DNA of 64,000 nt from Pacificibacter maritimus (GTDB lineage Bacteria > Pseudomonadota > Alphaproteobacteria > Rhodobacterales > Rhodobacteraceae): contig NZ_RKQK01000001.1 in NCBI RefSeq assembly GCF_003814915.1, forward strand, positions 450,031 to 514,030. Reading direction: 5' to 3'. Positions 10,019 through 64,000 of the stretch are shown one piece after another. The stretch's first letter is position 1. The number at the start of each line of letters is the position of its first letter. Position numbers and translations under genes: made by a program. Under the pieces are notes generated by a model. The model was given only the letters and a program-made list of their open reading frames with translations. It was not told the origin of the DNA and did not search any database.

Positions 10019-10054
10019 TGCGTCACAGGGCGTACGTCACAGGGCGTGCGTCAC
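10019..10054. repeat. Tandem 14-bp repeat, about 2.6 copies
   Basis: tgcgtcacagggcg, tacgtcacagggcg and tgcgtcac follow one another, with one mismatch. The repeat lies between the DUF1476 stop codon and its terminator hairpin, and therefore in the 3' UTR. No function is evident. Confidence 0.85.
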
Positions 10055-10071
10055 GATGCCTAGGCAGCGTT

Positions 10072-10374: not shown

Positions 10375-10642
10375 GGGGTATCCTCCAATATATGTTTGAT
10401 CTAGATATGACGCCCCGCGCGCTGAGCTTCAAGGGCGAATGATCTCTCCTGTGCAATATGCGGGGCGCAATCTGGGTGCAAACCCTGTGAAATGACGCTT
10501 GGTCTTTTAAATATGACGTTTCGGTTACAGAATTGAGCTTGGCGGGGGCGCTGATCTTGCTTGGGCGTCTCGCTTGCCCTAAAGAGCGGGTTAAAGAGGC
10601 TGGATGAATGATTCCCAGCCCCCATATCTGTTTGGAGATCCC

Positions 10643-11401: not shown

Positions 11402-11468
11402 AACGCGATACCCTGCGTTTATTTAAGATTTGCAAAGACTTAAACGTCGAAAGAAAGGCCCGATCGCT

Positions 11469-11699
11469 ATGAAAGCCCGTGTAAATGTAATGCTGAAAAA
11501 CGGTGTTTTGGACCCACAAGGGGCGGCCGTGCGCCACGCGCTTGGCGCGATGGGGTTCGAGGGCGTCAACGATGTGCGTCAAGGTAAAGTGATCGAATTG
11601 GATGTGGCTGATGGCACAACCGAAGAAAGCATCAAGCAAATGTGCGAAAAGCTTTTGGCCAATACGGTGATTGAAAGCTACACAATCGAGCTGGCGTAA
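11469..11699 (+). CDS. purS: Phosphoribosylformylglycinamidine synthase subunit PurS
   Basis: This 76-residue protein is the small structural subunit that joins PurL and PurQ in the multi-subunit FGAM synthase. It starts MKARVNVMLK, contains the typical GVLDPQG and VRQGKVIEL segments, and ends in a strand with ESYTIELA. The start at 11469 gives the standard family length; an upstream in-frame start would add 13 basic residues without support. It sits between purC and purQ in the same direction. PurL is not in the window. Confidence 0.95.
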   Translation: MKARVNVMLKNGVLDPQGAAVRHALGAMGFEGVNDVRQGKVIELDVADGTTEESIKQMCEKLLANTVIESYTIELA

Positions 11700-18463: not shown

Positions 18464-21400
18464 ATGGCTAAAAAGATGCTTATCGATGCCACCCACGCGG
18501 AAGAAACACGCGTAGTAGTGGTAGATGGAAACAAAGTTGAGGAATTTGACTTTGAATCCGAAAACAAACGCCAGCTAGCTGGCAATATATACCTCGCACG
18601 CGTCACGCGGGTTGAACCTTCGCTACAAGCGGCCTTTATCGATTACGGTGGAAACCGCCACGGCTTCTTGGCGTTTTCAGAAATTCACCCCGATTATTAC
18701 CAGATTCCCATCGCTGACCGCGAAGCTTTGCTGGCCGAAGAATTGGCCGATGCCAAAGCGCAAGAAGAAGAAGACGAAAAGCCAAAACGCAGCCGCCGTC
18801 GTGGACGCTCACGCTCACGCAGCCAAGCTGAAGACACGAAATCAACAGATGCTGTGGCCACTGCTGAAGCGGAAATCGACAGCGCGGCTGATGAAGCTTC
18901 GACGCCTGAAGCGACTGTTTCGGGCATGGATGTCGTTGAACCTGAAAGCAGCCCTGCGGATGCCCTGATCGAAGAGGCGCAAAGCGATACGTCTTCTGAG
19001 GCGGCTATTGCGGCGGACCCTGTTGCGGCTGAGGAAGCTGAAGCGCCATCTGAGACACCAAAAGTCGCGGAAGACGCTGCAAAAGCGGAGGACGTTCAGT
19101 CAGATAGCACCGAGTCTGATGAAGCAAAAATCACAGATGACCAGCCTGCTGATGATCAAGGTGATCAAGGTGACGCGGTAGACTCAAATGATGACGACGC
19201 GAATGACGACGATGATGACGACGACGATGATGAGGCCGAAACGGCCGCAGAAAAAGACGACAGCATCGAAAACGTCGCTGATGATGACAGCCAAGAAGAT
19301 ATTCGTCCGCGCCGCAAACCACGTGCGCGCCGCTACAAGATTCAAGAAGTTATCAAAGTCCGCCAAATCCTATTGATCCAAGTGGTCAAAGAAGAGCGCG
19401 GCAACAAAGGCGCGGCCCTGACCACTTACCTGTCTTTGGCGGGTCGTTACTGTGTTTTGATGCCAAATACCGCACGCGGTGGTGGCATTTCACGCAAGAT
19501 CACCAATATCGCTGACCGCAAAAAGCTAAAAGAAATCGCCACAGAAATGGATGTGCCACAAGGCGCAGGCCTGATCGTGCGCACAGCGGGCGCGCAGCGC
19601 ACCAAGACCGAAATCAAACGCGATTACGATTACTTGAAACGTATGTGGGAACAGATCCGCGAATTGACGCTGAAATCTGTGGCCCCTGCGAAGATCTATG
19701 AAGAAGGCGACCTGATCAAACGCTCTATCCGTGATCTCTATTCAAAAGAGATCGACGAGGTGATTGTCGAAGGTGATGCGGGCTACCGCACCGCCAAAGA
19801 CTTTATGCGGATGATCATGCCGACCCATGCGAAAAACGTCACGAACTACCGTGAAAACTTGCCTTTGTTTGCCCGCTATCAAGTGGAAAGCTACCTTGGG
19901 TCCATGTTCAACCCGACCGTTCAGTTGAAATCTGGCGGCTATGTTGTGATCGAAGTGACCGAGGCTTTGGTCTCTGTGGATGTGAACTCTGGTCGTTCGA
20001 CCAAAGAGGGTTCAATCGAAGACACAGCTTTGAAAACCAACTTGGAAGCGGCCGAAGAAGTGGCACGCCAAGCGCGTTTGCGTGACCTTGCAGGCTTGAT
20101 CGTGATCGACTTTATCGACATGGAAGAGCGCCGCAACAACACGGCCGTTGAAAAGCGTCTCAAAGACAAGCTGAAAACAGATCGCGCCCGCATCCAAGTG
20201 GGTCGTATTTCTGGCTTTGGCCTGTTGGAAATGTCGCGCCAACGTCTGCGTCCGGGTATGCTCGAGGCCACAACTCAGCCTTGTCACCACTGTCACGGCA
20301 CGGGTCTGATCCGTTCTGACGACAATATGGCCTTGACCATTTTGCGCCAGCTCGAAGAAGAAGGCACCCGTCGTCGGTCGCGCGAAGTCTTGTTGAAAGC
20401 GCCCGTTGCGATCATCAACTACTTGGTGAATATGAAGCGCGAAAAGATTGCTCAGATCGAAGCACGCTACGGCATGGCCGTGCGTATGGAAGCTGACATG
20501 CATATGATTTCGCCTGATTTTACCATCGAAAAATTCAAAACCGCCACGCGTGTGATCCAAGAGGTGCAATCCAATGTTGTCTCAGCCTCGGCTGCGATGA
20601 TGGATGAAATGGATGCGGAAGCTGATGCAGCAGCGATTGCAGCAGCAACCTCTGAGGTGACTGAAGATCAGTCCACTGACAGCCCTGCACCCACATCTGA
20701 CGAGGGCGAAGAGCAGCCTAAAAAGCGTCGTCGTCGTCGCCGTCGTCGTCGCAAGTCTAGCGATCAGAATGAAGGGCAAGACAACGGGTCAGAAGAAAAC
20801 GGGTCAGAAGAAAACGCGCCCAAGGATGCGGCTGACGCCACTGAGGATGCGTCAGACAAACCCGCCGAGGCGGCTGAGACAGGCGAAACTGAGGGGGATA
20901 CAACCGCAGAAAAGCCCAAGCGCACGCGTACCCGCAGGTCACGTAGCAGCCGCAAAACGGCAGCCGCTGATGTCAGCGAAACCGATGCATCCGAGACAGC
21001 ACCAGCCGATGCGGTGACTGGCGAGGCTTCTGAGGTGGCTTCTGACGTGGCAGAAACACCTGAACCTGTCGCTGAAAAGCCAAAGCGCACACGCACGCGT
21101 CGCAAAAAGTCTGAGGTTGCGCCAACAGATGGGCCGACAGATGCGCCAGCCGAAAGCGCGACGGATGACGCTGCACCAACTGAGGTTGCGGATGATGCTG
21201 TGGCCGAAAAGCCCAAACGCAAACGCCGCAAAAAGGCCGATGTTGAAGCTGTAGCGGCCGAAGCGGCTGAGGCAGAACAGCCAAAGCCCAAGCGCAAGCG
21301 CCGCACAAAAGCTGAAATCGAGGCTGATAAAGCAGCGAAAGCAGCCGCAGCCGCGCAGGCTGAAACGCCAAAAGACATAAGCGTTGAACCAGCGCCTGCC

Positions 21401-22566: not shown

Positions 22567-23811
22567 ATGGATGAAATGACCAGTGACAAGAGTGATGCAG
22601 TGACGCGGCGCCGTGTGTTCTACATTCCGGGCTATGATCCTATTCCGCCGCGCCGTTACCGCGAATTATACCGTAAAGAAGGCGCGAAACAGGCCGAGGT
22701 TTCTGGCTATGACTTAACACTCAGCCCAAAGTCAGGACCGCGTTTTGGCTGGCAGGTGGTTAGTCAGATCGACGGGCAAGACTGCCATAGCGAAATTGAT
22801 GTATTGGTCTGGTCTGACATTGTGCAATCCAGCATGGATGCAGGGATTTTCCAGACCTATTTGATCTTACTGCGCACTGCGTGGATCTACATTTCGACAG
22901 GGGCTTTGCGCGGGTTGATGAAACTGCGCCGTGGGCCTGTATTGGCAGCACTTTATCCTGTTGCGATCTTACTGGTGCAGCTTTTTATCGCTGTTTTGCT
23001 GGCTTGGGGGCTATTTGCACTGCTGGGATTGATATCCCAAACGCTCGTGTTTCAGGGCATTTCAGGTCTAGCGGCGCTGGCTTTGGGCTATGGTGTTTTA
23101 CGCTGGTTTAAAAAGAAAGACGGCAAGTTTTTCGCCTATTACCTAATGCATGACTACGGGTTTTCCGCCCGATGGCGCGGGGCAGAGCCGCCTGAGTTAT
23201 TGGAAAGATTAAAAGAGTTTCAAACTGATATTGCCCAAGCTTTGACCGAAGACTGGGACGAGGTCTTGGTCGTCGGCCATTCTTCTGGCGCGCATTTAGG
23301 GGTGTCGGTTTTGGCTGATTTGATCCGTTCGGGTGAGGTGCCAGAACACAGATCTGATCGGGGGCCAAAGCTGGCGTTTCTCACCCTTGGTCAAGTGGTG
23401 CCGATGGTCAGCTTTTTGCCCGAAGCCAAGCGTCTGCGCCGTGATTTGGCTTTTTTAAGCGCGCGTAACGACCTGTTTTGGCTGGATGTTTCTGCGCCTG
23501 GCGATCCTTGTTCTTTTGCGCTTTGCGATCCGATCAAAGTATCGGGCGTAGCGCCTATCGATCAAAAGTGGCCTTTGGTGATTTCTGCCGCCTTCACCCA
23601 AAGTCTTTCGCCTGAAGTCTGGGCCAAATTAAAGCGTCGTTTTTTCCGTCTGCATTTTCAATACCTTTGCGCCTTTGATCGTCCGATGGGCTATGATTAT
23701 TTTAAAATTACGGCTGGAAATCAATATCTTGCAAGTGCATTTAAAGGTTATGCGCCAACGCCAAGCCGCATTGATACCCCCGCCAATCCCCATAAAGAGA
23801 TGGCCGAATGA
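22567..23811 (+). CDS. Membrane-anchored alpha/beta hydrolase-like protein
   Basis: The 414-residue protein has an N-terminal soluble part starting RRRVFYIPGYDPIPPRRYR, with an oxyanion-type first strand. Two membrane helices follow at about residues 128-175. The C-terminal part has a nucleophile elbow VVGHSSGAHLG with Ser near residue 241. The order suggests an esterase or lipase fold split by a membrane hairpin. I do not know its substrate. It overlaps the P450 gene by 4 bp (ATGA), so the two are translationally coupled and may act on the same lipid-like compound. A second Met at residue 4 is an alternative start. Confidence 0.75.
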   Translation: MDEMTSDKSDAVTRRRVFYIPGYDPIPPRRYRELYRKEGAKQAEVSGYDLTLSPKSGPRFGWQVVSQIDGQDCHSEIDVLVWSDIVQSSMDAGIFQTYLILLRTAWIYISTGALRGLMKLRRGPVLAALYPVAILLVQLFIAVLLAWGLFALLGLISQTLVFQGISGLAALALGYGVLRWFKKKDGKFFAYYLMHDYGFSARWRGAEPPELLERLKEFQTDIAQALTEDWDEVLVVGHSSGAHLGVSVLADLIRSGEVPEHRSDRGPKLAFLTLGQVVPMVSFLPEAKRLRRDLAFLSARNDLFWLDVSAPGDPCSFALCDPIKVSGVAPIDQKWPLVISAAFTQSLSPEVWAKLKRRFFRLHFQYLCAFDRPMGYDYFKITAGNQYLASAFKGYAPTPSRIDTPANPHKEMAE

Positions 23812-25175
23812 TTGCCCCCAAACCAAAATCGCGGCCTGATAAAACCAGTCTGCGCGGCTATGTGAAACTGTTTCGCAAAGACATTTTATCGGCGCAGCCT
23901 GCCAAATTATACCGCGCTTGGATGGCCGAATTTCGCACGCCATTTTTCAGGTCATATCTGGTCAATCAACCTGATTTGATCAAGCGGGTGCTAAATGAGC
24001 GCCCAATGGATTTTCCAAAATCCGCACGTATCGCCGAAGGTTTGATCCCTTTGCTGGGGGAAGGATCGGTGTTTTTGACCAATGGCGAGGCGTGGAAGCG
24101 CCAGCGCCGCATCATTGATCCCGCGTTCGAGGGCGGGCGTTTGCGCGACACATTCGATGCTATGGTGGCGTCTGGGCAGATGGCCGTGGCGCGCCTTGAC
24201 GCTGCAGCAGGGCCAAAAGCTGCGCCGATTGATTTGGAACCCCATACATCGCATGCGGCCGCAGATGTGATTTTTCGCACATTATTTTCAATCCCGATTG
24301 AGCATGAAATTGCGCGCGATGTATTTGCGCAATTCCAAGATCACCAGCGCGAACAGCCGATTTTGAACATCGCGGCTTTCATCCCATTGCCCAAATGGAT
24401 GCCGCGGTTTCACAGCAAGCGCACCAAGCAGACGGCCAAAAGCATTCGCGCCTTGATCCGTAAATTGACCGAAGATCGGATGCGCGAGATCAAGGCTGGG
24501 ACTGCGCCGAATGATTTGGCGACGAAAATCATGACCACGCCTGACCCAGAAACAGGGCAGGTGTTCTCAGCTGAGGAAATGGTCGATCAAGTGGCGATTT
24601 TCTTTTTGGCGGGGCATGAAACATCAGCCTCTGCGCTGGCTTGGGGCTTGTGGCTTTTGGCGGCCAACCCCGATGCGCAAGCGCGCGTGGCAGCAGAAGG
24701 CGCTGCCTTGGGGGATGCCCCGCAGTTTTCCGACCTCTCCAAGCTGCGTTACACAAAAGACGTGTTTCGCGAGACCCTGCGGCTCTATCCGCCTGTGCCG
24801 ATGATGGTGCGTGAAACCACATGCCCAGAACATTTTCGCGCGCGCGACATTCCCAAAGGCAGTCAGATCGTGCTGTCGCCTTGGCATGTGCAGCGCCACG
24901 AACGGTTTTGGGATGATCCCGATGTGTTTGATCCTGAGCGCTTTAAAACCGAGAACGGCAAACAATGCCTGCGCGATGCCTATATTCCCTTTTCGTCAGG
25001 ACCACGTGTTTGCACAGGGGCGGGCTTTGCCATGGTCGAAGGGCCGTTGATTTTGGCCATGATTGCGGCCAAATATCAGATGCGTGTCGTCGATGAGAAA
25101 CGCCCTGTGCCCGTTGCACATTTAACCGTAAGATCACGGGATGGAATTTGGCTGCAATTGGAAAAACGCGCTTAG
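23808..25175 (+). CDS. Cytochrome P450
   Basis: The 455-residue protein has all P450 signatures. These are the I-helix AGHETSA for oxygen activation, the K-helix ETLRLYPPVP (ExxR), the PERF-type DPERFKTEN, and the haem-binding loop FSSGPRVCTGAG with ligand Cys402. There is no signal or membrane anchor, so it is a soluble bacterial monooxygenase needing separate redox partners, none of which are adjacent. It resembles long-chain/fatty-acid-type P450s more than the short camphor type, but the substrate is not predictable. It is coupled to the upstream membrane hydrolase. Confidence 0.95.
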   Translation: MIAPKPKSRPDKTSLRGYVKLFRKDILSAQPAKLYRAWMAEFRTPFFRSYLVNQPDLIKRVLNERPMDFPKSARIAEGLIPLLGEGSVFLTNGEAWKRQRRIIDPAFEGGRLRDTFDAMVASGQMAVARLDAAAGPKAAPIDLEPHTSHAAADVIFRTLFSIPIEHEIARDVFAQFQDHQREQPILNIAAFIPLPKWMPRFHSKRTKQTAKSIRALIRKLTEDRMREIKAGTAPNDLATKIMTTPDPETGQVFSAEEMVDQVAIFFLAGHETSASALAWGLWLLAANPDAQARVAAEGAALGDAPQFSDLSKLRYTKDVFRETLRLYPPVPMMVRETTCPEHFRARDIPKGSQIVLSPWHVQRHERFWDDPDVFDPERFKTENGKQCLRDAYIPFSSGPRVCTGAGFAMVEGPLILAMIAAKYQMRVVDEKRPVPVAHLTVRSRDGIWLQLEKRA

Positions 25176-51267: not shown

Positions 51268-52281
51268 ATGGAAAATAATATATCTAAATTCGGCGAAATG
51301 CCTGACGGCGAAACCGTTCATTGCATTGCTTTGTCAGGCGGTGGCTTGAAGGCGCGCATCCTAACCTATGGGGCCACGGTTCAAGATTTGCGACTGGAGG
51401 GTGTGGACCATCCTTTGGTCTTGGGGGCGCCGACACTTGCGCCCTATTTTGGGCCTTTCACCTATTTCGGCGCCTTGGTAGGGCGGTTTGCCAATCGCAT
51501 CGCACAGGGGCGGTTTTCCCTTGATGGCACTGACTATCAGATCACACGAAAAACGGGCGACATACAGGCCTTGCATGGAGGTGAGACGGGCACGGGGCAG
51601 CGCAATTGGACCATCGCAGATGTTTCGACCTCGCATGTTTGCCTGCGTCTTGTTTTGGCGGATGGAGATATGGGATTTCCAGGTGAATTGACTGTTTTAT
51701 GCGATATCCGATTAACGCAGGCAGGGGGGCTGAGTTTTGATATCTCGGCCACGACCACCCAAGCCACGCCCTGTTCCTTTGCCCATCACAGCTATTTCAA
51801 CCTTGATGATAGCCCAGAGATTTCGGATCACAGCTTACAGGTGGATGCCGCGCATTACCTGCCTGTGGATGATGGTCAAATCCCCACTGGCGAAATCAAA
51901 CCTGTGGCTGGGACAAAGTTCGATTTTCAAACCGCTGAGACCATCGGCCAGCGCGGTCTTGATCACAATTTTTGCCTGACGACCAAGCCTGTGCCCAGAA
52001 AAACCATTCGTGATGTTGCCATTTTGACGGGCAAAACCTCGGGTGTGTCCATGCGGGTCGCAACGGATCAGCCTGGCTTGCAAGTCTATGATGCCGCAGG
52101 GTTTCCCAAGTCAGGCCTTTCTGGCTTAGAGGGGCGCCGTTACGGACCATTCGCGGGGCTGGCGCTCGAAACACAGGCTTGGCCCGATGCGCCCAATCAC
52201 CCGCAGTTTCCAAATGCGGTTTTGCGCAGCGATGAAACATATCGTCATCATGTCAGCTATCACTTTAGCAAAGCGCGCTAA
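51268..52281 (+). CDS. galM: Aldose 1-epimerase (galactose mutarotase)
   Basis: The 337-residue protein has the GalM beta-sandwich. It shows YGATVQDLRL, the GRFANRIAQGRFSLDG strand with substrate Arg, LHGGETG, AHHSYFNLD with the catalytic His, and late ALETQAWPDAPNHPQFPN with the catalytic Glu. It interconverts alpha and beta anomers of galactose and other aldoses. It has no signal peptide. It faces the halogenase-GH4 operon convergently and fits the galactoside locus. Two copies of AGATCAAT 27 bp apart lie just upstream (51224, 51251) and could be regulator half-sites. Confidence 0.93.
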   Translation: MENNISKFGEMPDGETVHCIALSGGGLKARILTYGATVQDLRLEGVDHPLVLGAPTLAPYFGPFTYFGALVGRFANRIAQGRFSLDGTDYQITRKTGDIQALHGGETGTGQRNWTIADVSTSHVCLRLVLADGDMGFPGELTVLCDIRLTQAGGLSFDISATTTQATPCSFAHHSYFNLDDSPEISDHSLQVDAAHYLPVDDGQIPTGEIKPVAGTKFDFQTAETIGQRGLDHNFCLTTKPVPRKTIRDVAILTGKTSGVSMRVATDQPGLQVYDAAGFPKSGLSGLEGRRYGPFAGLALETQAWPDAPNHPQFPNAVLRSDETYRHHVSYHFSKAR

Positions 52282-52337
52282 GCTGTCATCTATGGCTGTC
52301 TTGGCCTGTGAGAACGGGCGGATTGTCGGCGCCCGAT

Positions 52338-53870
52338 CTAAAGCTGGGTTAAATATGCACGGTGCCCAAGGGCGCGCAGGGCCGCTGATTTAAATTCGCG
52401 GTCAAGCTGCATAAGGGTTTTGCGCGCCTGCGCTTTAAGGCGGGGATGGTTTGCGAAGACCTGTTTGGCACAGGCCGCGGGCAACTTCCCAAGCCCCGCC
52501 AAAACAGGGGCGTAAAGCTGTTCTTCCACATGTGGCAGGTTGCCTGCGAAGGGTTGGAAGTCAGCGCGGGTGACCGGATGGGCCTGCCAATGGCGCAGCT
52601 GCGCCTGTGTCTGGCCTGTAAGACCGCTGTGGGTCATATCGGTCCAAAACGCTGTATCGGTTCTTCCGCCTGCGTAGTGTAAATTGATAAATTGTGCAAA
52701 ATCATTAACTTGTCTGGCGACTGTCATGTTATACTTGATGCGCGCCTGTGCCGCTTTCGGGCCCAATAGGGTATCGAATGAGAGGCGGGTCAAGATCAAG
52801 GTTTGCACCAAACTGCCATGAATTGATGTGGCTTCCAGCGGTTCAAGAAAGCTTTGCGCCAAGCCGATCGCGACACAGTTGTTGACCCATGCGTGGTTCA
52901 ATCTGCCTGGCTCGATTGACAAAACCCCACGGGGTTCAATCGGTTTGCCAAGCTTTGTTTCAATCTCGGCCTGTGCCGCGTCTGGAGTTATATGGGCATC
53001 GCTGAAAACATAGCCGCAGCCCATGCGGTCTTGGACAGGGATAGCCCAGATCCAGCCTGCATCCACGGCCTGCGCTGTGGTGTATGGGGCGATGTCTTTG
53101 TTTGGGTCGTGCTCCATCCAAAAGGGCATGGCGCGATTGAGCGGCAGAAACTTTCCGTAAGAGGTCCAGCCCGCTTGCAATTCGCCGATAATAGCCCGCC
53201 GAAAGCCTGTGCAATCGATAACAAAATCGACGGGCAAGGCCGCACCATCTGTCATGATCAAATCCGTTATATTCCCTGTGCTGGAGGCACGTTTTAGCCC
53301 TGCGACTTGCGCGCGTATGTGGTCAATGTTCTTGGCTTTGCGTGCCAAGAAAGCGCCAAGGCGCGCTTGGTCGAAATGATATGCGTGGTGAAAAGGGCTC
53401 AGCGCAATCGGGTCACCAGTAGCACTGCGCGCAAAGGGGGATTTACGCGCGCGCATCAAAGCGGTGAACAGATGCGCGTCAGCCAGTGATTTTCCTGAAG
53501 CGATGCGGGCGTGGTGCAACCAGTTTGCTGGCAGGCCCGCAGGGACAGGGCCGAGCGCATTGGGATCATCAATAGGCCCAAAGAAGTGCTTTCCACCTGC
53601 GCGCCAGCCTTTGTGATGGATGCCAAATTTAAATGTGGCTCCCGTTTCGCGCAAAAATTCACTTTCATCTATACCAAGATCCAAGAGAACTTGGCGAAAC
53701 ACCGATGTCGATCCTTCGCCCACCCCCACGGTCGGGATGTCGGGTGCTTCAATGACCGAAAACCGAATGGTTTGTCCCGCCTTTTCGGCGGCCCGCTTTA
53801 AAACGAGGGCCGCCAACCAACCTGCGGTGCCGCCCCCGACGATTGCGATGTGTTTAGCGTTTTTGTCCAT
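52338..53870 (-). CDS. Flavin-dependent (tryptophan-type) halogenase
   Basis: The 510-residue protein has the FAD-binding GGGTAGW at the N-terminus and the PTVGVGEGSTSVF stretch. A Lys lies in GATFKFGI, at the place of the catalytic lysine of PrnA/RebH. The WIWAIPVQDR motif (W-x-W-x-I-P) and FLEPLEATSIHG, with the active-site Glu, are also present. Family enzymes chlorinate or brominate indoles, pyrroles or phenols using FADH2 and halide. The start at 53870 avoids an upstream extension without a ribosome site. It follows the GH4 gene by 16 bp and is clearly in the same operon, an unexpected companion for sugar genes. No flavin reductase is adjacent. Confidence 0.9.
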   Translation of the reverse strand: MDKNAKHIAIVGGGTAGWLAALVLKRAAEKAGQTIRFSVIEAPDIPTVGVGEGSTSVFRQVLLDLGIDESEFLRETGATFKFGIHHKGWRAGGKHFFGPIDDPNALGPVPAGLPANWLHHARIASGKSLADAHLFTALMRARKSPFARSATGDPIALSPFHHAYHFDQARLGAFLARKAKNIDHIRAQVAGLKRASSTGNITDLIMTDGAALPVDFVIDCTGFRRAIIGELQAGWTSYGKFLPLNRAMPFWMEHDPNKDIAPYTTAQAVDAGWIWAIPVQDRMGCGYVFSDAHITPDAAQAEIETKLGKPIEPRGVLSIEPGRLNHAWVNNCVAIGLAQSFLEPLEATSIHGSLVQTLILTRLSFDTLLGPKAAQARIKYNMTVARQVNDFAQFINLHYAGGRTDTAFWTDMTHSGLTGQTQAQLRHWQAHPVTRADFQPFAGNLPHVEEQLYAPVLAGLGKLPAACAKQVFANHPRLKAQARKTLMQLDREFKSAALRALGHRAYLTQL

Positions 53871-53886
53871 GGGCAAAGTTAGCAAA

Positions 53887-55245
53887 TCATTTGGACACTT
53901 GCGCCCATTTTGGCAACCAATCGCCATGAGCTTGGCGCAGACGGTCCACCATAGCCCAGATTTGATCCAGATCGAGTTCTGCGCCTGTGTGCGGATCCAT
54001 CATGGCGGCGTGATAGATGTACTGAGGGTCTTGCGTCATCAGCGCTTCGACCACGAGCCCTTGCACGGTGACGTTGGATTGCATGATCGCTGTGAGCTGC
54101 GGGGGCAGGGTGCCGACGGCCGTGGGCTGCACGCCATTGGCATCGACCAAACAGGGCACTTCGACAGCACAGCCTTGGGGGAGATTGTCGATCAAACCGA
54201 AGTTTGGCACATTGCCATAGATCACAGAGGGCGTGCCAGTCCAGATCGAGTTCACAATCTCTGAGGCGTATTCGTGGCTTTCTTTGATTTCAATCGTGTC
54301 GGATGTGTTCAACCTTTCGCGTTCTTCTTCCCAATTCGCGATCTGTTCGACACAACGCTTTGGATATTCATCCAGCGGAATTTGGAACTTTTCGAGTATG
54401 TCTTCGCGGCCCTCTTTGATGAACCACGGCGTGTATTCCGCAAAGTGTTCAGAGCTTTCGGTCAAGAAATATCCAACCTTGGTCATCATCTCATATCGCA
54501 CGATGTTCGGGCAACGCGGGTTGTGATCGTTTGGCTTTGGTAGGGTGCCATTGGCATAGCCCGCCAAAAGATCAGGGTAGAGATCACGGTAACTGCCATC
54601 AGGCAGTCTTTGCTCGAATTTTAGCATAAAGGCGATGTGATTGATGCCTGCGCATTCGTAGCGAATGTTACTCACTGGAATGTCCAGATCATGCGCCAGT
54701 TCTTTTGCTGTACCTTGAACAGAATGACATAGGCCAACCTGTTTGATGGTTGGATATTTGCGTGCAATCGCCCATGTGTTGATCGCCATTGGGTTGACGT
54801 ATTGCATCAGGGTTGCCTCAGGGCAGAGCTCTAGCATATCCTCACAGATCGACCACAAATGTTGCACAGTGCGCAGCCCGCGCATAATGCCGCCGACACC
54901 CAAAGTGTCAGCAATGGTTTGGTTCAGCCCAAATTCTTTTGGCACCTCAAAGTCGGTTTTCGTACAGGGATCAAAGCCTCCAATTTGAAAGGCGACAAAA
55001 ACGAAATCAGCCCCATCGAGTGCCTCACGTTGATTGGTATGGGGGGTAATCTTTGCACCAACACCCAAGGTCGAAACCATTTTTTCTGCAACGGCTTGCG
55101 ATTCTGATAAGCGGGTTTCATTGATATCCATCAAGGCAATATGCGCTTGTGTAAGCGCGTCACGTTGCAAAATGTCGCCCACAATGTTGCGCATAAATAC
55201 GGTGGAGCCAGCGCCGATAAAGGCAATTTTCGGTGAATGGGTCAT
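53887..55245 (-). CDS. GH4 family alpha-galactosidase/alpha-glucosidase
   Basis: The 452-residue enzyme belongs to glycoside hydrolase family 4, which uses NAD+ and Mn2+ in an oxidation-elimination mechanism. Visible motifs are the NAD-binding IAFIGAGSTVFMRN, the metal-binding GLCHSVQGTAKEL (Cys-His) and CAGINHIAFM, with a further His in the later MMDPHTGAELDLD. It lies with the MelA/AglA subgroup, so alpha-galactosides such as melibiose or raffinose are likely substrates in the cytoplasm. AAGGA precedes the ATG. It begins an operon with the halogenase. A copy of the shared 14-bp box lies 79 bp upstream. Confidence 0.9.
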   Translation of the reverse strand: MTHSPKIAFIGAGSTVFMRNIVGDILQRDALTQAHIALMDINETRLSESQAVAEKMVSTLGVGAKITPHTNQREALDGADFVFVAFQIGGFDPCTKTDFEVPKEFGLNQTIADTLGVGGIMRGLRTVQHLWSICEDMLELCPEATLMQYVNPMAINTWAIARKYPTIKQVGLCHSVQGTAKELAHDLDIPVSNIRYECAGINHIAFMLKFEQRLPDGSYRDLYPDLLAGYANGTLPKPNDHNPRCPNIVRYEMMTKVGYFLTESSEHFAEYTPWFIKEGREDILEKFQIPLDEYPKRCVEQIANWEEERERLNTSDTIEIKESHEYASEIVNSIWTGTPSVIYGNVPNFGLIDNLPQGCAVEVPCLVDANGVQPTAVGTLPPQLTAIMQSNVTVQGLVVEALMTQDPQYIYHAAMMDPHTGAELDLDQIWAMVDRLRQAHGDWLPKWAQVSK

Positions 55246-55324: not shown

Positions 55325-55338
55325 TTCCGGAAAATCAC
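55325..55338 (-). promoter_or_regulatory. Shared 14-bp box upstream of the GH4 operon
   Basis: GTGATTTTCCGGAA on the minus strand is identical to the box upstream of the ABC binding-protein gene (61284-61297). It lies at nearly the same distance from its start codon (79 versus 84 bp). Here it overlaps the stop codon of the ABC ATPase gene, showing that the GH4-halogenase unit probably has its own promoter. Confidence 0.6.
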
Positions 55339-56945
55339 GCTAAGACGTTAAAGGCTGCATCAACCAGTCGGCGCGTGTAGGGCGTTTGGGGATCGGTTAA
55401 AACCTGCTCTGTCGGGCCTGTTTCAACCACTTTCCCATGCTGCATCACGATCACATTGTGACACAGGGCACGCACCACTTTTAGGTCGTGGCTGATAAAG
55501 ACATAGCTGAGATCGCGCTTGCGTCTGAGGTCGCGCAACAGGTCAATGATCTGGGCTTGGATCGACAAATCCAGTGCTGATGTCGGTTCATCTAGCAAGA
55601 TAAATTCGGGTGATAAAACAATCGCGCGGGCGATCGCCAAGCGCTGTCTTTGCCCACCAGAAAACTCATGCGCAAAGCGATCCAGCGCCGAATGGGGCAT
55701 ATGCACATCGTCTAATGCTTGGCGCAATAAGGCGTCGCGCTCCGCAGAGTTGCCGCCTATATTGTTGACAATTAATCCTTCTTCCAAAATCTGGCGAATG
55801 ATCATGCGCGGGTTTAGCGAGGAAAACGGGTCTTGAAACACCACCTGCATCCGCGTGCGGTAGGGCTGTAACTCTTTGCGCGATAAGTGATCAACGCGGT
55901 CGCCTTGAAAGGTTATTTCACCCTTTTGATAATGCCCCAGTCGGATCATCGCCATGCCCAACGTGGTTTTCCCAGATCCGCTTTCGCCGACAATACCTAA
56001 GGTTTCTCCCTTGTGGATCGTGGCTGATATATTGTCGACCGCTTTGAGTTCTTTCAGTTTTGGATTGAAAAAACCACCAGATTTCAGCAAGAAACTGATC
56101 GACATATCGCTACACGATAAAACGGGTTCAGCAGTTTCGGGCAGGGGGTCGGGATGCCCTTTGGGGTCTGAATTGATCAAATGTTGGGTGTAGGGATGTC
56201 GCGGATTGTCAAACACCTCTTGTGTGTCGCCACGTTCAACAACCTCGCCTTGGCGCATGACCACAACCTTGTCTGACACTTTGGACACCACGGTCAAATC
56301 ATGGGTGATCAAGATAACGGCCATGCCATGTTTTTTCTGCAGGTCTTTGAGCAAGGATAAGATCTCGGCCTGCACCGTCACATCCAAGGCTGTCGTCGGC
56401 TCATCCGCAATCAAAAGATCTGGGGTATTGGCCAAGGCCATGGCAATCATCACGCGCTGGCGTTGTCCGCCTGACATTTCATGCGGATATTGACTAAATC
56501 GCGTTTCAGGGTCAGGCAATTGCACCTCGTCAAGCAGGCGTATGACTTCGCGTTTAAGATCGGCTTTGCTTATTTTACGGTGCGCCGTAATGATTTCGCC
56601 GACCTGATCGCCGATTTTATAAACAGGGTTCAGACTGGTCAGCGGTTCTTGAAAAATCATCGCGATGCGCCGCCCGCGGATGTCTTGCAATTGCAGATCT
56701 GACCATTCGGAAATGTCATCCCCGTCAAACAAGATTTTGGTGTCCTCACCGACACGCGCATTTGACGCCAACATCCCCATAATAGCGCGTGCTGTCACGG
56801 ATTTTCCCGATCCACTTTCGCCCACCACGGCCAAGGTTTCGCCCCTTGCGACACTGAAACTGACGTTTTTCACCGCATCAATTTGACCCGCCACTGTGTG
56901 GAAAGAAATTTTGGCGTTTTCAACGCTTAAAATAGGATCAGTCAT
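55335..56945 (-). CDS. Fused double ATPase of a peptide-type ABC importer (DppD-DppF fusion)
   Basis: The 536-residue protein contains two complete ABC ATPase domains. The first has Walker A GESGSGKS near residue 43, signature [12 protein letters not shown] and Walker B LLIADEP. The second has [20 protein letters not shown] and FILLDEP. This is the YejF/fused DppDF architecture of the peptide/nickel/opine family, several members of which import oligosaccharides. It powers the two permeases encoded just upstream, and its ATG at 56945 overlaps the permease end by 8 bp. It is the last gene of the ABC operon. Confidence 0.93.
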
Positions 56946-58083
56946 GTGAATAAGGGTCCATTGCATCGCGCAGGCCATCGCCAAGTGCGTTAAAGGCCAG
57001 AACAGAAAGAATAATCATGCCAACGGGGGCCAAAAGCCACGGCGCTGAGGCCAGCGATTGAAAGTCGCGCACGGCGTTGAGCATCACCCCCCAAGAGACC
57101 ATGGGCTGTTGAATGCCGACCCCCAAGAAAGATAAAAAGCTTTCGAGCAAGATCACTTCGGGCAGAACATAAGTGGCCCAAACAATGATATGCGATGACA
57201 TGTTGGGAATGATGTGACGCCCGATGATACGTTTATCGCTGGCCCCAACCGCCACGGCGGCGCGCACAAATTCGACCGACCGAATAGCGATCACCTTGCC
57301 GCGCAATTCGCGCGCCAGATCGGCCCATTTCAGCACAACAACAATGGCCGCAAACATCACGAAGGTCAGCATAGGATCGGCGCGTCGCGGCAAGACCGCA
57401 ACCAAAGCAAGGTATAAGGGCAGGTCGGGAAAGGATTTCACAAATTCGATCACACGTTGAATGACCGTATCCGTACGCCCACCCAAGTAACCAGAGGTGA
57501 CGCCCACAAGCGTTCCGATCACACAGGCCATGCCCATGACAATCATGCCCATCAACAGCGTGATACGGCTGCCGTATAACATGCGGCTAAACACATCGCG
57601 CCCAAGCCCATCAGTGCCCAAAAAATGCACGGGCGCACCCTTCGCACCGCCGATGAAATGGGTGGTGAAATTCATACCTAAAAACTGATACTCTGGGCCC
57701 TGCACAAACAGCGCCAAATCAACCCGTTTTTCAGGGCTTGGTTGAAAGGTGATCTCATAGGTTACAGGGTGCATTTCTTCGGCAAAGCCTAAGACATAGG
57801 GGCGCGTCAGGCCGCCATCTTGGGCAATAAAACGCGGCATTTGCGGTGGCGTGTAGATTGCAGAGCGGTCTTTGGTTGCGGGTGTATAGGGCGCAAGAAA
57901 AGGCGCACAAAGGGCTGTGAAAATAATGGCACAACAGATGATTGCGCCGATGACGCCCGTTCGATTACGCGCAAATCTTTTGCGCACCAATTGCCAATAT
58001 GACAGGGAGGGCCCTGTGGCGACTTCTGCATTCATTTCGAAATCATGAGCATGCGAAGCGGGATCGGTGATGTGATCTGACAT
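56938..58083 (-). CDS. ABC transporter permease (DppC/YejE-like)
   Basis: The 381-residue permease has a cytoplasmic start and a helix at about residues 40-62. A long periplasmic insertion follows to about residue 150, as in YejE-type proteins. Five helices carry the EAA loop ARELRGKVIAIRSVEFVRAAVAVGASDKRI that docks the ATPase. It forms the channel with the DppB-like permease encoded 11 bp upstream. Its end overlaps the ATPase gene start. Confidence 0.92.
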   Translation of the reverse strand: MSDHITDPASHAHDFEMNAEVATGPSLSYWQLVRKRFARNRTGVIGAIICCAIIFTALCAPFLAPYTPATKDRSAIYTPPQMPRFIAQDGGLTRPYVLGFAEEMHPVTYEITFQPSPEKRVDLALFVQGPEYQFLGMNFTTHFIGGAKGAPVHFLGTDGLGRDVFSRMLYGSRITLLMGMIVMGMACVIGTLVGVTSGYLGGRTDTVIQRVIEFVKSFPDLPLYLALVAVLPRRADPMLTFVMFAAIVVVLKWADLARELRGKVIAIRSVEFVRAAVAVGASDKRIIGRHIIPNMSSHIIVWATYVLPEVILLESFLSFLGVGIQQPMVSWGVMLNAVRDFQSLASAPWLLAPVGMIILSVLAFNALGDGLRDAMDPYSHD

Positions 58084-58094: not shown

Positions 58095-59117
58095 TTAAAA
58101 TGTGGCTTTGCGCACGCGTGGGTCAAGCAGGGCCAGCGCGATATCAGCCAGCAGATTGCCAACCACCATCAAGACAGCCACCAGCAAGAAAATCGCGGCA
58201 ACAACATACATATCGCGTTCACCAACAGAGTTGATGATCAGCGGACCAAGCGTGGGAATGCCCAAAACGATGGCGATCTCAAGTTCGCCTTTGATCATGT
58301 AATCAAAGCGTGCACCCATGTTCATAATCACAGGATGCAGCGCATTTGGCACAGCGTGTTTGTACAAGATTTTGCGCCGAGACAGACCTTTGGCACGGGC
58401 TGTTTCGATATATTGCGCGTTCATGACATCCAGCAAATTGCCGCGCATCATGCGGGTCGTATAGGCTTGACCTGCCCAGATCGAAATCAACAAAATGGGC
58501 CAGACATGCAAAAATAAGTCCCACAACTTGGCAAATGACATGCCCTCTTGTACTTGGAATTCCGCTGAATAGAGCGCACCCAAATAGGGTGAATGCCAAA
58601 CAAAAGCTATAAAATACAATAGGATAAGAGCGATAACAAATTTAGGGATCACGATGCCGATGAAAGCAACAAAAGTGGCAAGCTTATCGCCCCATTTGTA
58701 TTGATTGGTGGCCGCATAGATGCCCAGAAAAACGCCAATCGCCTGCCCGACAACCAAAGTCACCAAAGCGATACCGATAGAGCGCCACAGGCGCAGGCCG
58801 ATCACATCGGCCACAGGGCGCGATTGCGAAAAGGATTGACCAAAATCGCCGCTGATGACGATGTTTTTGATCCATAGCCAGTATTGCACATACAAAGGTT
58901 GATCGAGACCAAGCTGGGATCGCAATTCCATCGCGCGCGGCATCAAGCTTTCACGGGTTTGACCTGTTTGAGCCATGGTGATGCCCAACCAACGATCAAC
59001 ATAATCGCCTGGAACCGCATTGATAATTAGAAATGTCGCAATGGAAATCCCGATCAAAAGAGGGATCGTCACAACGATACGGCGTAGAATAAAGAGGACA
59101 AACCTCATTCGAGCCAC
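58095..59117 (-). CDS. ABC transporter permease (DppB/YejB-like)
   Basis: The 340-residue permease has an N-terminal helix (FILRRIVVTIPLLIGISIATFLIIN), a periplasmic loop, and five more helices. The EAA docking loop is RGNLLDVMNAQYIETARAKGLSRRKILYKHAVPNAL in outline. It is encoded 69 bp downstream of the solute-binding protein and 11 bp upstream of the partner permease, so the order is binding protein, B permease, C permease, ATPase. Confidence 0.92.
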   Translation of the reverse strand: MARMRFVLFILRRIVVTIPLLIGISIATFLIINAVPGDYVDRWLGITMAQTGQTRESLMPRAMELRSQLGLDQPLYVQYWLWIKNIVISGDFGQSFSQSRPVADVIGLRLWRSIGIALVTLVVGQAIGVFLGIYAATNQYKWGDKLATFVAFIGIVIPKFVIALILLYFIAFVWHSPYLGALYSAEFQVQEGMSFAKLWDLFLHVWPILLISIWAGQAYTTRMMRGNLLDVMNAQYIETARAKGLSRRKILYKHAVPNALHPVIMNMGARFDYMIKGELEIAIVLGIPTLGPLIINSVGERDMYVVAAIFLLVAVLMVVGNLLADIALALLDPRVRKATF

Positions 59118-59186: not shown

Positions 59187-61199
59187 TTAGTATTCAGCAA
59201 CAGTTCCCGGGAGGATTTCATCAACCTGTAGATCACTGGGCGTCCACAGGCGTTCGCGCATCACGCTGTCTTCAGCCCATTCATACATGAACACAGGGGT
59301 TCCAGGATGCGCATTGCGCACACGCTTATTGACGAGCAAAGCCGCAGGAACCTGAACCGTGCCGACGTAGTAGACGTTTTCGGTCATAAGTTTTTGCATG
59401 TCTTTGGCCAATTGCGCGCGTTCTGTTGCATCATTGCTGGCGTTGAACTTATTGTATGCTGTTTCCAATTCCACCTCAAAATCAAGGCGTTCGCCACCTT
59501 TGTTGAAGTGCGGGCAATTGGTGCCAGCGGGGAAGCTTTCACAGGCTTCACGTGTTGGCAAAATCACCGGCAAACGTGTGATCATCGCAGTATATGTGCC
59601 GCCAGTTCGATTTGTGTCCAAAGAGGTGCCGTCGCCCGTACGGGTTTGCAGACGAATGCCAACTTCTTCCAGTTGAGAGGCCACAGCTTCAAGCTGTTTC
59701 ACATCCGCATTGCGTTCGCCTTCGACCATGACGTCGATAATGATGTCATCGCCACCATTTGGCAGGTTGCGAATGCCATTGCCATCGGTGTCTGCCAGAC
59801 CAAGCCCATCCAGCAATGTGGCGGCTTTGGATTGATCGTAAGCTTGAAACACAGATGACTCGGCATCGTAATAGGGCGAACCTGTCGCAAAGCCTGCCAC
59901 GTAAGGATAGGCGAATGGACCACGGGCCACAGATTGACCGATTGCATCACGATCTAGCGCATGTGACATCGCCACACGGAAGTCTTTTTCGCGGAAAAGG
60001 CTGCGCAGGGCCAGTTCGAAATCGTCTTCTGCGGCTGTTGTGTCAAAATTGAACATCAAACGCCATGACAAAACACGCGGACCGAAGTTGGCCACAACGG
60101 GGCTGTCTTCGTCTTGCGATTGTTTCAAAGCCTCCACAAAGTTACCGGGATCTTCCATGTTGGAAAAGTCGCCCGTGCCTGCAACAGCCTGCGTTGTGCG
60201 GTCGCTCCAAGTGGATAATTTGAAGTGCATTTCGTTATAATAGGGCAGCTGTTGACCGCTTTCATCCACCTTAAAATAATATGGATTGCGACGCATGATC
60301 ACCAATTCATCGGGGCGGTGTACTGTTGGAACCCATGCGCCCAAAACAACCGCTGGCGTTTCGTCATTTGGCATGGAGCCTGTGTAGCTCTCATATGTTG
60401 CCGCATCGTTGTAAGACGGGTGGTTGGATTTCAAAATATGGCTTGGGCCAGGGCAGCCTTGGATATAGGCCAGACCTTCAAGCACGTTTTCACTTTGCGG
60501 TTCAGCGAAGGTGAATTTGAACGTGTAATCGTCGATCACTTCCATTGTGGTGCCAGTGCCGCCAAAGGAATCCGCTGGCATACGTGAGGCGACGTTTTCG
60601 TTTTGAACGTTGTCCTCCCACCAAAAGCGCACGTCTTCGACATCAAAAGCATCACCATCAGACCATTTTACGCCCTGCATCAAATGCATCGTGACAGTTT
60701 TGCGATCTTCGCTCCACTCCCATGACTGCGCGAGGTTCGGTAGCGGGCCTGTTTGTTCTTCGGCTTTCACCTGCCAACGTGGGCCTTGGCGCACAAGGCA
60801 TTCTTGCATCGCCATATTGATGCCACCCCAGCCTTGGTGCTGACCTGCCATCCAGTTCCAGCCTTCAGGACGACCACCGATCACATGGCGAAACACGCCG
60901 CCATATTCACCAATACCATCTGACATGGCACCCGTTTTCATAATGATCGGCTCTTTGGGTAAACGATCTGCAACCGCAGGCAATTTCCCAGCCTCAACCA
61001 GCTCTGTCAGGAATGGTGCCTCTGAATAGCTATCAAGCGCGCCGTAATCGAAAATATCTGCTTTACCTATCAGGTCGTAGTCTAATCCTGATAGGCTTTT
61101 TTCGACAGGCATCATATCTGCGAAAGCAGGTGCGACGATGGCTGATAGCAGTGCAGTTGCCCCCATCAAGCCGCAAGTGCTTTTGAGTTTCTTATACAT
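59187..61199 (-). CDS. Peptide-family ABC solute-binding protein, probable oligosaccharide binder
   Basis: The 670-residue protein has a signal peptide (STCGLMGATALLSAIVAPAFA) and the SBP_bac_5 fold. The fold shows LAQSWEWSEDRKTVTMHLMQGVKWSDGD and FREKDFRVAMSHALDRDAIGQ. It is larger than peptide binders such as DppA (about 535) and close in size to sugar-binding members such as AgpA of rhizobia, which carry alpha-galactosides. The start at 61199 follows GGAGGAGACAAT; the longer upstream frame is not used. The glycosidases on both sides support an alpha- or beta-galactoside ligand. It is the first gene of the ABC operon and has an activator-type promoter. Confidence 0.9.
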   Translation of the reverse strand: MYKKLKSTCGLMGATALLSAIVAPAFADMMPVEKSLSGLDYDLIGKADIFDYGALDSYSEAPFLTELVEAGKLPAVADRLPKEPIIMKTGAMSDGIGEYGGVFRHVIGGRPEGWNWMAGQHQGWGGINMAMQECLVRQGPRWQVKAEEQTGPLPNLAQSWEWSEDRKTVTMHLMQGVKWSDGDAFDVEDVRFWWEDNVQNENVASRMPADSFGGTGTTMEVIDDYTFKFTFAEPQSENVLEGLAYIQGCPGPSHILKSNHPSYNDAATYESYTGSMPNDETPAVVLGAWVPTVHRPDELVIMRRNPYYFKVDESGQQLPYYNEMHFKLSTWSDRTTQAVAGTGDFSNMEDPGNFVEALKQSQDEDSPVVANFGPRVLSWRLMFNFDTTAAEDDFELALRSLFREKDFRVAMSHALDRDAIGQSVARGPFAYPYVAGFATGSPYYDAESSVFQAYDQSKAATLLDGLGLADTDGNGIRNLPNGGDDIIIDVMVEGERNADVKQLEAVASQLEEVGIRLQTRTGDGTSLDTNRTGGTYTAMITRLPVILPTREACESFPAGTNCPHFNKGGERLDFEVELETAYNKFNASNDATERAQLAKDMQKLMTENVYYVGTVQVPAALLVNKRVRNAHPGTPVFMYEWAEDSVMRERLWTPSDLQVDEILPGTVAEY

Positions 61200-61390: not shown

Positions 61391-62254
61391 ATGTCAGCAG
61401 AATTTTCAGGCAAAGCCTTGGTCGATGTCGTATCATACGGGGAAAACGTATTTTTAGAACATCACCAACCCGAAGGCACATCAGATCCCTATCATACGCA
61501 CCCGTCGATCGAAATAAACTACCTGCGTGGGTGCGACATGACCTATTCGTTTTCTGGCGAAGAGGTGACCATTGTGCGCGACCGTTTATGTGTATTCTGG
61601 GCGGCCTATCCGCACCGCCCTGTTTCGGTGACGGGCAAGGGCACGATCACCAATGCTTATGTGTCTTTAAAACAGTTTTTGGATTGGCCTTTGTCAACCA
61701 AATTTGTCGATCAGGTGCTATCAGGGGCGCTGCTTTGCGCCAAAACGGAAAAGAATTATGACCAGTCTTTGATGTCGCGTTGGGCACGTGAGGCAGGGGA
61801 AATGGATCCGCACTGGCAACGTTTGCACCGCCAAGAAATTCATGCGCGTGTGGCGCGTTTGGATTTGGAAGGATGGGATGTCATCGCCAATCCACGGTCA
61901 GCCACGCGCCATAGTGGGATGGGCGGCAATGCCGTGACACATTTTGACAAAATGCTGCGCTTTATCGCCCATAACGCGTTTGATCCGATATCAGTGCAAG
62001 ATGTGGCGGAGTCTGCGGGAATTTCGCGCAATTACGCGATTGAACTGTTCCGAAAAATGCTGGGCGTGACGGTGAAAGCCTATATCATCGATCTTAGAAT
62101 TCACCACGCAAAGATGATGTTGGCGGATACAAACGAAAAAATTCTGTCGGTGGCATTTGACTGTGGCTTCACCTCTTTGTCGTCATTTTATGAGGCTTTC
62201 AGCAAATCTTGTGGGCAGTCGCCCGCAGCCTACCGCCGCGAGCGTCAAGGTTAA
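61391..62254 (+). CDS. AraC-family transcriptional regulator of the galactoside locus
   Basis: The 287-residue protein has an N-terminal cupin-like sugar-sensing domain (THPSIEINYLRGC, with a His cluster). The C-terminal double helix-turn-helix holds ISVQDVAESAGISRNYAIELFRKMLG and ILSVAFDCGFTSLSSFYEAFSKSCGQSPAAYRRER. It is divergent from the ABC importer operon and ends 6 bp before the GH42 gene. It likely activates importer and glycosidase operons when the sugar is present. Two copies of one 14-bp box upstream of those operons are candidate sites. Confidence 0.92.
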   Translation: MSAEFSGKALVDVVSYGENVFLEHHQPEGTSDPYHTHPSIEINYLRGCDMTYSFSGEEVTIVRDRLCVFWAAYPHRPVSVTGKGTITNAYVSLKQFLDWPLSTKFVDQVLSGALLCAKTEKNYDQSLMSRWAREAGEMDPHWQRLHRQEIHARVARLDLEGWDVIANPRSATRHSGMGGNAVTHFDKMLRFIAHNAFDPISVQDVAESAGISRNYAIELFRKMLGVTVKAYIIDLRIHHAKMMLADTNEKILSVAFDCGFTSLSSFYEAFSKSCGQSPAAYRRERQG

Positions 62255-62260: not shown

Positions 62261-64000
62261 TTAGGGTTTAAGATCAAGGCGCAGCACACCCGCTGCAGGT
62301 AGGATGCCAAACTCGGTCTCAACGGGTGCGTTTGTGTGATTAAACCAGAAGTCTTCGGTCGCAGTGCGCCGCGTGCGAATGCCATCGGGCAGGGCGCGGA
62401 TCTCGAGGCCTGCGCGCGCGCAGAGCACAGCGATCACCCTGTCGAGCCCTTCCTGATCCAACCAAGCCCCGCAATAAAACAGACGGTCAGAACCGACCAA
62501 AACAGGTGTTTCGCCGCTGGTTAGGACAGCTTTTGCCGTGCCTTCCAATTCTTCGCGGTACAATATCACTTGACCACCGCCCTCTATCGCGATCGGGCAA
62601 TCTGGGCGCAGGCTTTCGACCCGCGCGACTGTGATGTCCAAGTTTGGCACATTTGGCGGTAAGGGTGTTGGCACTTCAAAGTCCCGCGTACGCGCGCCTG
62701 TACGTGGGCCAAGTTGCACCACAGCATCGCTTGCGCAAAGTGCTTTGGTCAAATCTGTGTCCATGTGCATCAGGCCTGGCGCCAGAACAAGCTTATATCC
62801 TGAAAATTCCCGAGTGGAGGCGGGGAGGATATCCACGCTCAACCCCGCTCGGCGCAGCGCGCGGTAGTGTTGAAACACAAGCTCAAAATAATCCAACTCT
62901 GCCCCATGGGGTTGCACGGACCATGCCCAAGCAGCGTCATAATCAAAGATCAACGCAATGGGGGCTTGTACGGGTTGCACATCAGGGGCTTTTGCCAATT
63001 CGGCGGCGACTTGTGCCACTTCTTGCATCGCGGGCGCATCTTGGTAATCCGAGCGCTGTAGCCCTGCGTGCATCTGTTCTTGGGCGAAATGGGCCTGGCG
63101 CCAACGGAAATAACACACGGCCTCTGCGCCATGTGCAAAGGCTTCCCAACTCCAAAGACGCACCATGCCAGAAAGGGGCGCAGGGTTATAGGGGGCCCAG
63201 TTCACAGGACCAGGCTGCTGTTCCATAATCCACCACCGCCCACGGCCGACTGCGCGGTACAGATCATGATGAAAGGCCTGAAAATCAGGATCGCCTTGAC
63301 GCGCAAAGGCACGTTTATGGGCTGGCTCAGCCGTGACGCGATCCTCTAGAAAGCCCAAAGGATAACTGTCCCATGTGGCGATTTCCATATCTTCGTTCAG
63401 TTTGAAATGATCGAAATCGGTCGTGCGTCCCATGTAGTTATGCGACACAGGCGCAGATGAATGGGCTTTGATTGCTTCCACTTGCATTTGATTAAAAGCA
63501 ACAACTTGATCTGAGCTGAACCGATGAAAGGCCATGGAATGGGCGAAATTGGGTACAGTGACAGTCAAATTCGGTAAGTCAATTTCATCAAATGACTGGT
63601 AGTTCATGGACCAAAACACATTGCCCCAAGCCGCGTTCAACGCTTCAATCGAGGCGTAGCGTTCACTGAGCCATCGTTGAAATGCGCCGCGGGCCGCATC
63701 TGAATAGGATATGGTTGTGTCGTGGCAGCCATATTCATTATCTGTTTGCCATGCGCCCACATATGGGTTTTGTCCATAGCGTTTTGCCATCAATCGTGTG
63801 ATACGCTGACTTTCTTTGCGGTAACCTAAGTGAGAAAAGCAATAGTGGCGTCTGGATCCAAATTTGCGTGGGCGTCCTTCGGCATCAAGGGCCAACATAT
63901 CGGGGTGGCGGTCTAGCATCCAACGCGGCGGGGTGGCGGTTGGCGTGCCTAGCACAACTTTTAAACCCGCGCGGCCCAAGGTTTCAATCGCACGGTCTAA
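62261..64000 (-). CDS. GH42 beta-galactosidase (5' end outside window)
   Basis: The frame stays open to the window edge, so about 580 C-terminal residues are present and the N-terminal part of the barrel is cut off. The catalytic acid/base Glu is in WQTDNEYG and the nucleophile Glu in WWIMEQQPGP, both typical of GH42. A trimerisation/glutaminase-like domain (IALIFDYDAAWAW ... LVLAPGLM) and a C-terminal beta domain follow. No signal is visible. It should hydrolyse beta-galactosides or related arabinosides imported by the adjacent ABC system. Confidence 0.93.
   Translation of the reverse strand, partial: LDRAIETLGRAGLKVVLGTPTATPPRWMLDRHPDMLALDAEGRPRKFGSRRHYCFSHLGYRKESQRITRLMAKRYGQNPYVGAWQTDNEYGCHDTTISYSDAARGAFQRWLSERYASIEALNAAWGNVFWSMNYQSFDEIDLPNLTVTVPNFAHSMAFHRFSSDQVVAFNQMQVEAIKAHSSAPVSHNYMGRTTDFDHFKLNEDMEIATWDSYPLGFLEDRVTAEPAHKRAFARQGDPDFQAFHHDLYRAVGRGRWWIMEQQPGPVNWAPYNPAPLSGMVRLWSWEAFAHGAEAVCYFRWRQAHFAQEQMHAGLQRSDYQDAPAMQEVAQVAAELAKAPDVQPVQAPIALIFDYDAAWAWSVQPHGAELDYFELVFQHYRALRRAGLSVDILPASTREFSGYKLVLAPGLMHMDTDLTKALCASDAVVQLGPRTGARTRDFEVPTPLPPNVPNLDITVARVESLRPDCPIAIEGGGQVILYREELEGTAKAVLTSGETPVLVGSDRLFYCGAWLDQEGLDRVIAVLCARAGLEIRALPDGIRTRRTATEDFWFNHTNAPVETEFGILPAAGVLRLDLKP

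Follow-up and report, generated by a model that had tools for sequence, protein, structure and literature searches.

The agp operon of Sinorhizobium meliloti, in the available part of PMC4254191, is a system for melibiose and raffinose, sugars with no aromatic part; it is needed for the assimilation of both, and induction of the melA promoter depends on the regulator AgpT. In Rhizobium, too, a transporter of alpha-galactosides goes by the name Agp (PMC3333776, accessible sections). Among flavin halogenases, BrvH of Brevundimonas brominates indole weakly and slowly, refuses tryptophan and has an unknown natural substrate, as described in the accessible text of PMC5945002. One survey places 83 of 103 genome-found flavin halogenases outside biosynthetic clusters, according to the portion of PMC8269204 available.

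In the window, by which we mean the entire 64-kb stretch of Pacificibacter maritimus DNA under analysis, a minus-strand run leads from a periplasmic binding protein of the SBP_bac_5 type by profile (59187..61199; AgpA-like, its start picked by eye at the signal-peptide Met) through two ABC permeases, B (58095..59117) and C (56938..58083), each with homologues in place at the related loci described below, and the double ATPase of an Opp/Dpp-type ABC importer (55335..56945, assigned by profiles) to a GH4 glycosidase (53887..55245; PF02056, PF11975) and, as the last gene, an FAD-dependent halogenase (52338..53870). The halogenase lies downstream of GH4 on the same strand with a spacing of 16 nt (53870 versus 53887), just as the initial annotation had given it. 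A TTG stands one codon ahead of the GH4 ATG at 55245, and an in-frame ATG at 53927, upstream of the halogenase, would overlap GH4 if it were used as the start. Against the NCBIfam alpha-galactosidase model PRK15076, the GH4 protein scores 665 bits (cut-off 486), and it is predicted to be of the alpha-galactosidase (MelA) type; a second GH4 type, found at some of the related loci, likewise exceeds the cut-off with 565 bits, and the model therefore cannot separate the two. Divergent from the importer, on the plus strand, lies an AraC-family regulator (61391..62254) that is MelR-like in that its best NCBIfam model is PRK10371, at 188 bits, below the cut-off of 253. With an SBP_bac_5 protein, two permeases, an ATPase and GH4 in one run, plus an AraC gene, the operon matches an agp-type importer set, with predicted uptake of alpha-galactosides.

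The flanks carry further sugar genes. A GH42 beta-galactosidase (62261..64000, minus strand; profile match from position 57) is cut by the window end and continues in the adjoining stretch, L172, and to its right follow lactonase, KDPGal aldolase, DgoK and SDR genes, a galactose pathway. A dehydratase remnant lies at L172:3902-4653 (about 67.4-68.1 kb in window numbering), where the query matched at its two ends only, residues 11-82 and 421-581. On the other side, an aldose 1-epimerase of the galactose mutarotase type (51268..52281, plus strand, assigned by profiles) is convergent with the halogenase, and the gap between them (52282..52337) holds a G+C hairpin, weak when its folding is compared with shuffles (-16.2 kcal/mol, z -1.64, 14 of 200 shuffles as good), that possibly forms the end of both convergent transcripts. 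The initial annotation had described a locus otherwise devoted to sugar import and hydrolysis, and the GH42, the MelR-like AraC gene, the SBP_bac_5 importer and the mutarotase agree with it. Far from the operon, a P450-like ORF that looks complete by eye occupies 23808-25175.

The halogenase is a protein of 510 residues read from an ATG at 53870 to a stop at 52338. Pfam Trp_halogenase (PF04820) covers residues 8-468 in a single stretch (E 1.4e-101), and the profile score of 341 bits stands against a cut-off of 21. The catalytic Lys (K81) and Glu (E346) are intact, together with the flavin motif GGGTAGW (GxGxxG) and the tunnel motif WxWxIP; E346 is present in 30/30 aligned clade members and K81 in 29/30, the exception, L101, having a disturbed reading frame there. 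The AlphaFold model (pLDDT 92.5) points in the same direction, with solved flavin halogenases as its best Foldseek matches. A complete halogenase with both catalytic residues had been claimed at the outset, along with the absence of a nearby flavin reductase, and both statements hold: a profile search found no PF01613 flavin reductase within the 64-kb window, which rules out one hidden in the operon, and the three in the genome are on other contigs (C2 and C3) than the window (C1). At another locus, L062, the gene between the halogenase and the second GH4 was considered as a flavin reductase and proved to be an AraC regulator; the ORF at the same place in L083 is of the same kind by eye. A profile search of the whole genome gave one PF04820 match, the halogenase itself. 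In the 20 of 24 close halogenase pairs having dS under 1.5, dN/dS is 0.07-0.29, of the same order as for GH4, ATPase and permease, and by this measure the halogenase is under purifying selection.

We considered how far the association with GH4 extends. A profile search of 394 family genomes gave 19 halogenases of at least 466 bits in 18 genomes, our own included, with the next family halogenase at 249 bits. A scan of named genomes with the clade alignment, its patterns taken from the clade itself, contributed the best 80 of 532 relatives, among which the E-value steps from 2e-123 to 1e-75 between L105 and L106. Neighborhoods were taken for the 18 foreign family clade matches and for 16 of the weaker family matches. 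After removal of 8 duplicate loci, the family search and the best 80 of 532 yield 52 distinct clade loci listed, a count that keeps L101, L102, L103 and the partial member L107; these four and L046 are omitted from the halogenase tree and residue comparison on account of frame trouble, partial sequence or breakage. L046, a broken clade copy, was one of 52 other halogenases taken, hence 51 compared. In the tree of 99 rows (48 clade, 51 others), built by a quick method with SH-aLRT as support and no bootstrap, a single branch (SH-aLRT 100) separates the clade from all other rows. Its members are 39-72% identical and spread over several orders. Nearest to it in the tree among the matches listed, on a long branch, are L106 and L108, which share one contig of a Prosthecobacter MAG; L106 has five halogenase matches consecutively, from 4837 to 11643.

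GH4 is found in the stretch of 50 of the 52 clade loci listed, and in 47 of the 52 it is the immediate same-strand neighbor of the halogenase, whereas an adjacent GH4 accompanies 0/51 of the other halogenases listed, L034 having one 8.6 kb off on the other strand. The two loci with no GH4 in the stretch are L050, where it lies on a separate contig from the halogenase, and L102, in which the contig begins beside the gene; in L051 the distance is 7.0 kb, and in L076 and L079 GH4 is 1.3 and 0.2 kb away on the opposite strand. Where GH4 lies directly upstream, a start codon is possible at -4 to +20 nt in 40/48 loci, and on a plasmid of Sulfitobacter mediterraneus M342 the ATPase, GH4, halogenase and second GH4 are annotated with 4-nt overlaps. 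All four importer parts (binding protein, two permeases, ATPase) occur in 36/52 listed clade stretches, many contigs being too short for a verdict and a few stretches including parts of a second transporter; the second GH4 type is present at 26 of the 52 and galactose-pathway or GH42 genes at 8. In L104 (uncultured alphaproteobacterium, isolate AG-457-D17), a PhyH-family dioxygenase (7698-8435) sits between two GH4 genes beside the halogenase, and a second PhyH lies at 20043-20867. The initial placement of the halogenase in a galactoside operon is thus strongly supported, and the GH4 pair, proposed for a search in relatives, is conserved and common to the clade. Calling this coupling unusual was wrong in one sense, since within the clade it is the rule, and a tie to algal carbohydrates is not supported: by record titles, among the matches listed, the clade spans pond and lake MAGs, Mesorhizobium and Tabrizicola. 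A marine-only bromination is likewise unsupported, given the pond and lake samples among these records. Chance neighborhood is ruled out by the clade-wide GH4 adjacency, the co-occurrence with the importer and the single clade branch.

Within the family, GH4 of this kind is present in 91/394 genomes and an AgpA-like binding protein in 20/394, both including all 18 halogenase genomes; the further two with a binding protein, G094 and G311, carry the importer and GH4 but no clade halogenase. Fisher tests that treat genomes as independent, ignoring kinship, give p = 9e-13 for GH4 and 3e-29 for the binding protein with the halogenase. In this family, where 20 genomes have the binding protein and 91 have GH4, the presence of the importer is thus a better guide to the halogenase than that of GH4. 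From 19 genomes, chosen by identity and contig size, we inspected 19 halogenase-free GH4 stretches (L151-L159, L161-L170): an AgpA-like binding protein is found in two (L156, L157), and the remaining 17 gave no binding-protein match, several having the galactose pathway instead. L152, among the 17, is the second GH4 of a halogenase genome, G351. In G165, a single draft genome, the halogenase (L050) is on a separate contig, and importer and GH4 are retained (L160, the agp set). The neighbors of L050 (SDR, arginase-family, ureidoglycolate-lyase-like, class IV aminotransferase, PmbA and inositol monophosphatase genes) gave no clear lead to a substrate. In G314 (L046), likewise a single draft, the halogenase is in pieces, GH4 is open and, within the stretch, the importer is reduced to two ATPase fragments on the other strand. 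Two binding-protein lineages, only some 45% alike, occur with the halogenase, an argument against a solute common to all, and the halogenase's co-occurrence inside the operon is partly common inheritance. G260, of the same genus as our source, gave no match for any of the three, halogenase, GH4 and binding protein, under the cut-offs applied, and presence of the complete set therefore varies between members of this genus.

The GH4 tree, midpoint-rooted only and with 30/99 inner branches weak, places halogenase-free agp operons (Rhizobium, Sinorhizobium, G094, G311, G165) among or next to halogenase-bearing ones, with 13 label changes for the halogenase-linked set. A halogenase-specific GH4 type is ruled out by this mixing, and the kind of GH4 therefore does not predict a halogenase. 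Within the first GH4 type, the lineage that branches off deepest (L097, L099, L104, L105) is halogenase-bearing. These relationships suggest that the halogenase may be ancestral to the operon, with later losses; loss in rhizobia is plausible because the plasmid-borne operons of S. meliloti B399 (L171) and Rhizobium sp. N621 (L150), both agp sets without halogenase, nest among halogenase-bearing ones.

The substrate pocket sets the clade apart. G98-P99-I100 is found in 30/30 aligned clade members, at the place where 5/5 solved Trp-halogenases printed have H-P-F. G98 and I100 occupy 48/48 clade rows, versus H 29, N 20, S 2 and F 49, I 2 in the 51 others. In PrnA, the His and Phe of this motif (H101 and F103) hold the indole ring. 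Because G98 and I100 replace them, free tryptophan is an unlikely substrate on this comparison, and a more polar or bulkier one is possible. BrvH keeps H-P-F and yet refuses tryptophan, so that substrate choice cannot be read from this motif by itself. Residues almost invariant in the clade but different in the other halogenases (48 versus 51 rows) include H86, G98, I100, D102, H133, N245, P249, F250, D291, Q387, H447 and P455, with H86, D102, H133, D291 and H447 as clade-specific polar residues. The clade has neither the aromatic clamp (His and Phe) of Trp-halogenases proper nor their location in a biosynthetic cluster, the setting in the window and at most clade loci being a sugar operon.

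We tentatively favor, with confidence somewhat short of even, a reading in which the gene, a standing member of the agp operon, codes for an active halogenase that is co-expressed with alpha-galactoside import and acts on a compound brought in by the importer. Two observations speak for a substrate entering by this route: the halogenase goes with the importer even in G165, where it sits off the operon, and in G314 halogenase and importer are both in pieces with GH4 open. The AraC/MelR-like regulator would turn on importer, GH4 and halogenase together upon encountering an alpha-galactoside, a joint control suggested by gene order and by the S. meliloti AgpT/melA precedent. An unlinked flavin reductase would supply FADH2, the halogenase would make hypohalous acid held on K81, and an electron-rich part of the imported compound would be halogenated, most probably once GH4 has cleaved off the galactose. 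Halogenation of the aglycone after GH4 cleavage is possible, and the product might be a halogenated aglycone that is detoxified, retained or bioactive. Counting against an import-linked substrate are the sister agp operons without a halogenase (Rhizobium, Sinorhizobium, G094, G311), from which it follows that the sugar side works without it, the lack of a flavin reductase linked to the halogenase, and the melibiose and raffinose handled by S. meliloti agp, neither of which has an aromatic moiety (PMC4254191).

Import and halogenation might instead share a promoter and nothing else, alpha-galactosides signaling a plant or algal host and the halogenase modifying a widespread small aromatic, for instance indole or a phenol, for signaling or competition. 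The halogenase's place at the end of the run would suit this proposal, as would the plain sugars served by the S. meliloti agp importer (PMC4254191, available part) and the weak bromination of indole, not tryptophan, by the near solved relative BrvH (PMC5945002, accessible text). We nonetheless take this main rival to be a possibility on the unlikely side: the link is to importer and GH4 and persists in G165 with the genes on different contigs, the indole-holding PrnA pocket motif is replaced throughout the clade rows, and no indole or phenol gene was seen beside the halogenase with mainly sugar-locus queries and a few Pfam scans. Simple carriage of a neutral gene caught in the operon by linkage would account for agp operons without a halogenase, but it is barely credible alongside purifying selection like that on GH4, ATPase and permease, retention across several orders at such divergence, and a halogenase kept off the operon in G165.

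Flavoproteins of the QhpG/GoxB type modify protein residues, and the protein might be a halogenase-fold flavoprotein that performs no halogenation in the cell and oxidizes or hydroxylates a sugar-derived enol or a protein residue. NCBIfam matches to GoxB, QhpG and LodB, weak and far below their cut-offs, lean this way, as do the clade-specific polar residues, but retention of the Lys, Glu, WxWxIP and flavin motif, and best fold matches that are halogenases, make it distinctly unlikely. The redox mechanism of GH4 yields an enol or keto form of the sugar, and such a carbohydrate could itself be the target, giving a halogenated sugar or rendering a reactive by-product harmless. A halogenase beside or between GH4 genes, and a pocket in which Gly and Ile stand in for the aromatic motif and polar residues are newly conserved, would accord with this, yet known flavin halogenases take electron-rich, mostly aromatic substrates (PMC7336383, available part), and neither the GH4 and galactose-pathway loci without an agp importer nor the Rhizobium agp operons have a halogenase; we regard it as very improbable. 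That the native substrate is a glycoside or sugar intermediate, the enzyme being an ancestral part of agp catabolism later lost by rhizobia and halogenation belonging to primary metabolism, is also improbable.

The open-access literature searched, with subscription papers and most preprints outside it, gave no earlier description of the halogenase-GH4 pair, and the word 'halogenase' is absent from the available portions of PMC4052901 and PMC2996990; NCBI annotation does place the genes side by side on the M342 plasmid. As far as searched, enzyme family and operon are each known and their union in one clade is undescribed. A whole halogenase clade goes with a single small sugar operon whose importer, glycosidase and regulator can be recognized, a link that narrows the substrate search to importer ligands and GH4-released compounds and suggests a halogenase job outside antibiotic making. 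Such a tie would also connect halogen chemistry with everyday carbon metabolism, in Rhodobacterales and Devosia as well as in other bacteria.

Among known systems, Rhodobacteraceae loci of GH4 with the galactose pathway (L155, L164, L168) share the GH4 family and galactose genes, and their stretches have no match to the AgpA-like binding protein or the halogenase. The importer and GH4 compare with S. meliloti B399, where L171, an unannotated record taken as the agp/mel operon (agpT, melA, agpA) from homology and gene order, is 44% identical to the window in binding protein, 45-46% in permeases, 58% in ATPase and 70% in GH4. It differs in having a second GH4 ahead of the binding protein, no halogenase match and, unlike for the other operon genes, no match to the window's AraC regulator. 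PrnA, RebH, PyrH and AbeH are 28-30% identical to the halogenase and carry H-P-F where the clade, which is without a biosynthetic cluster, has G-P-I. BrvH (6frl), the best single-sequence match and top Foldseek row, is about 30% identical and shares the catalytic motifs, with HPF in place of the clade's GPI; it belongs to the orphan flavin halogenases, as does Xcc4156.
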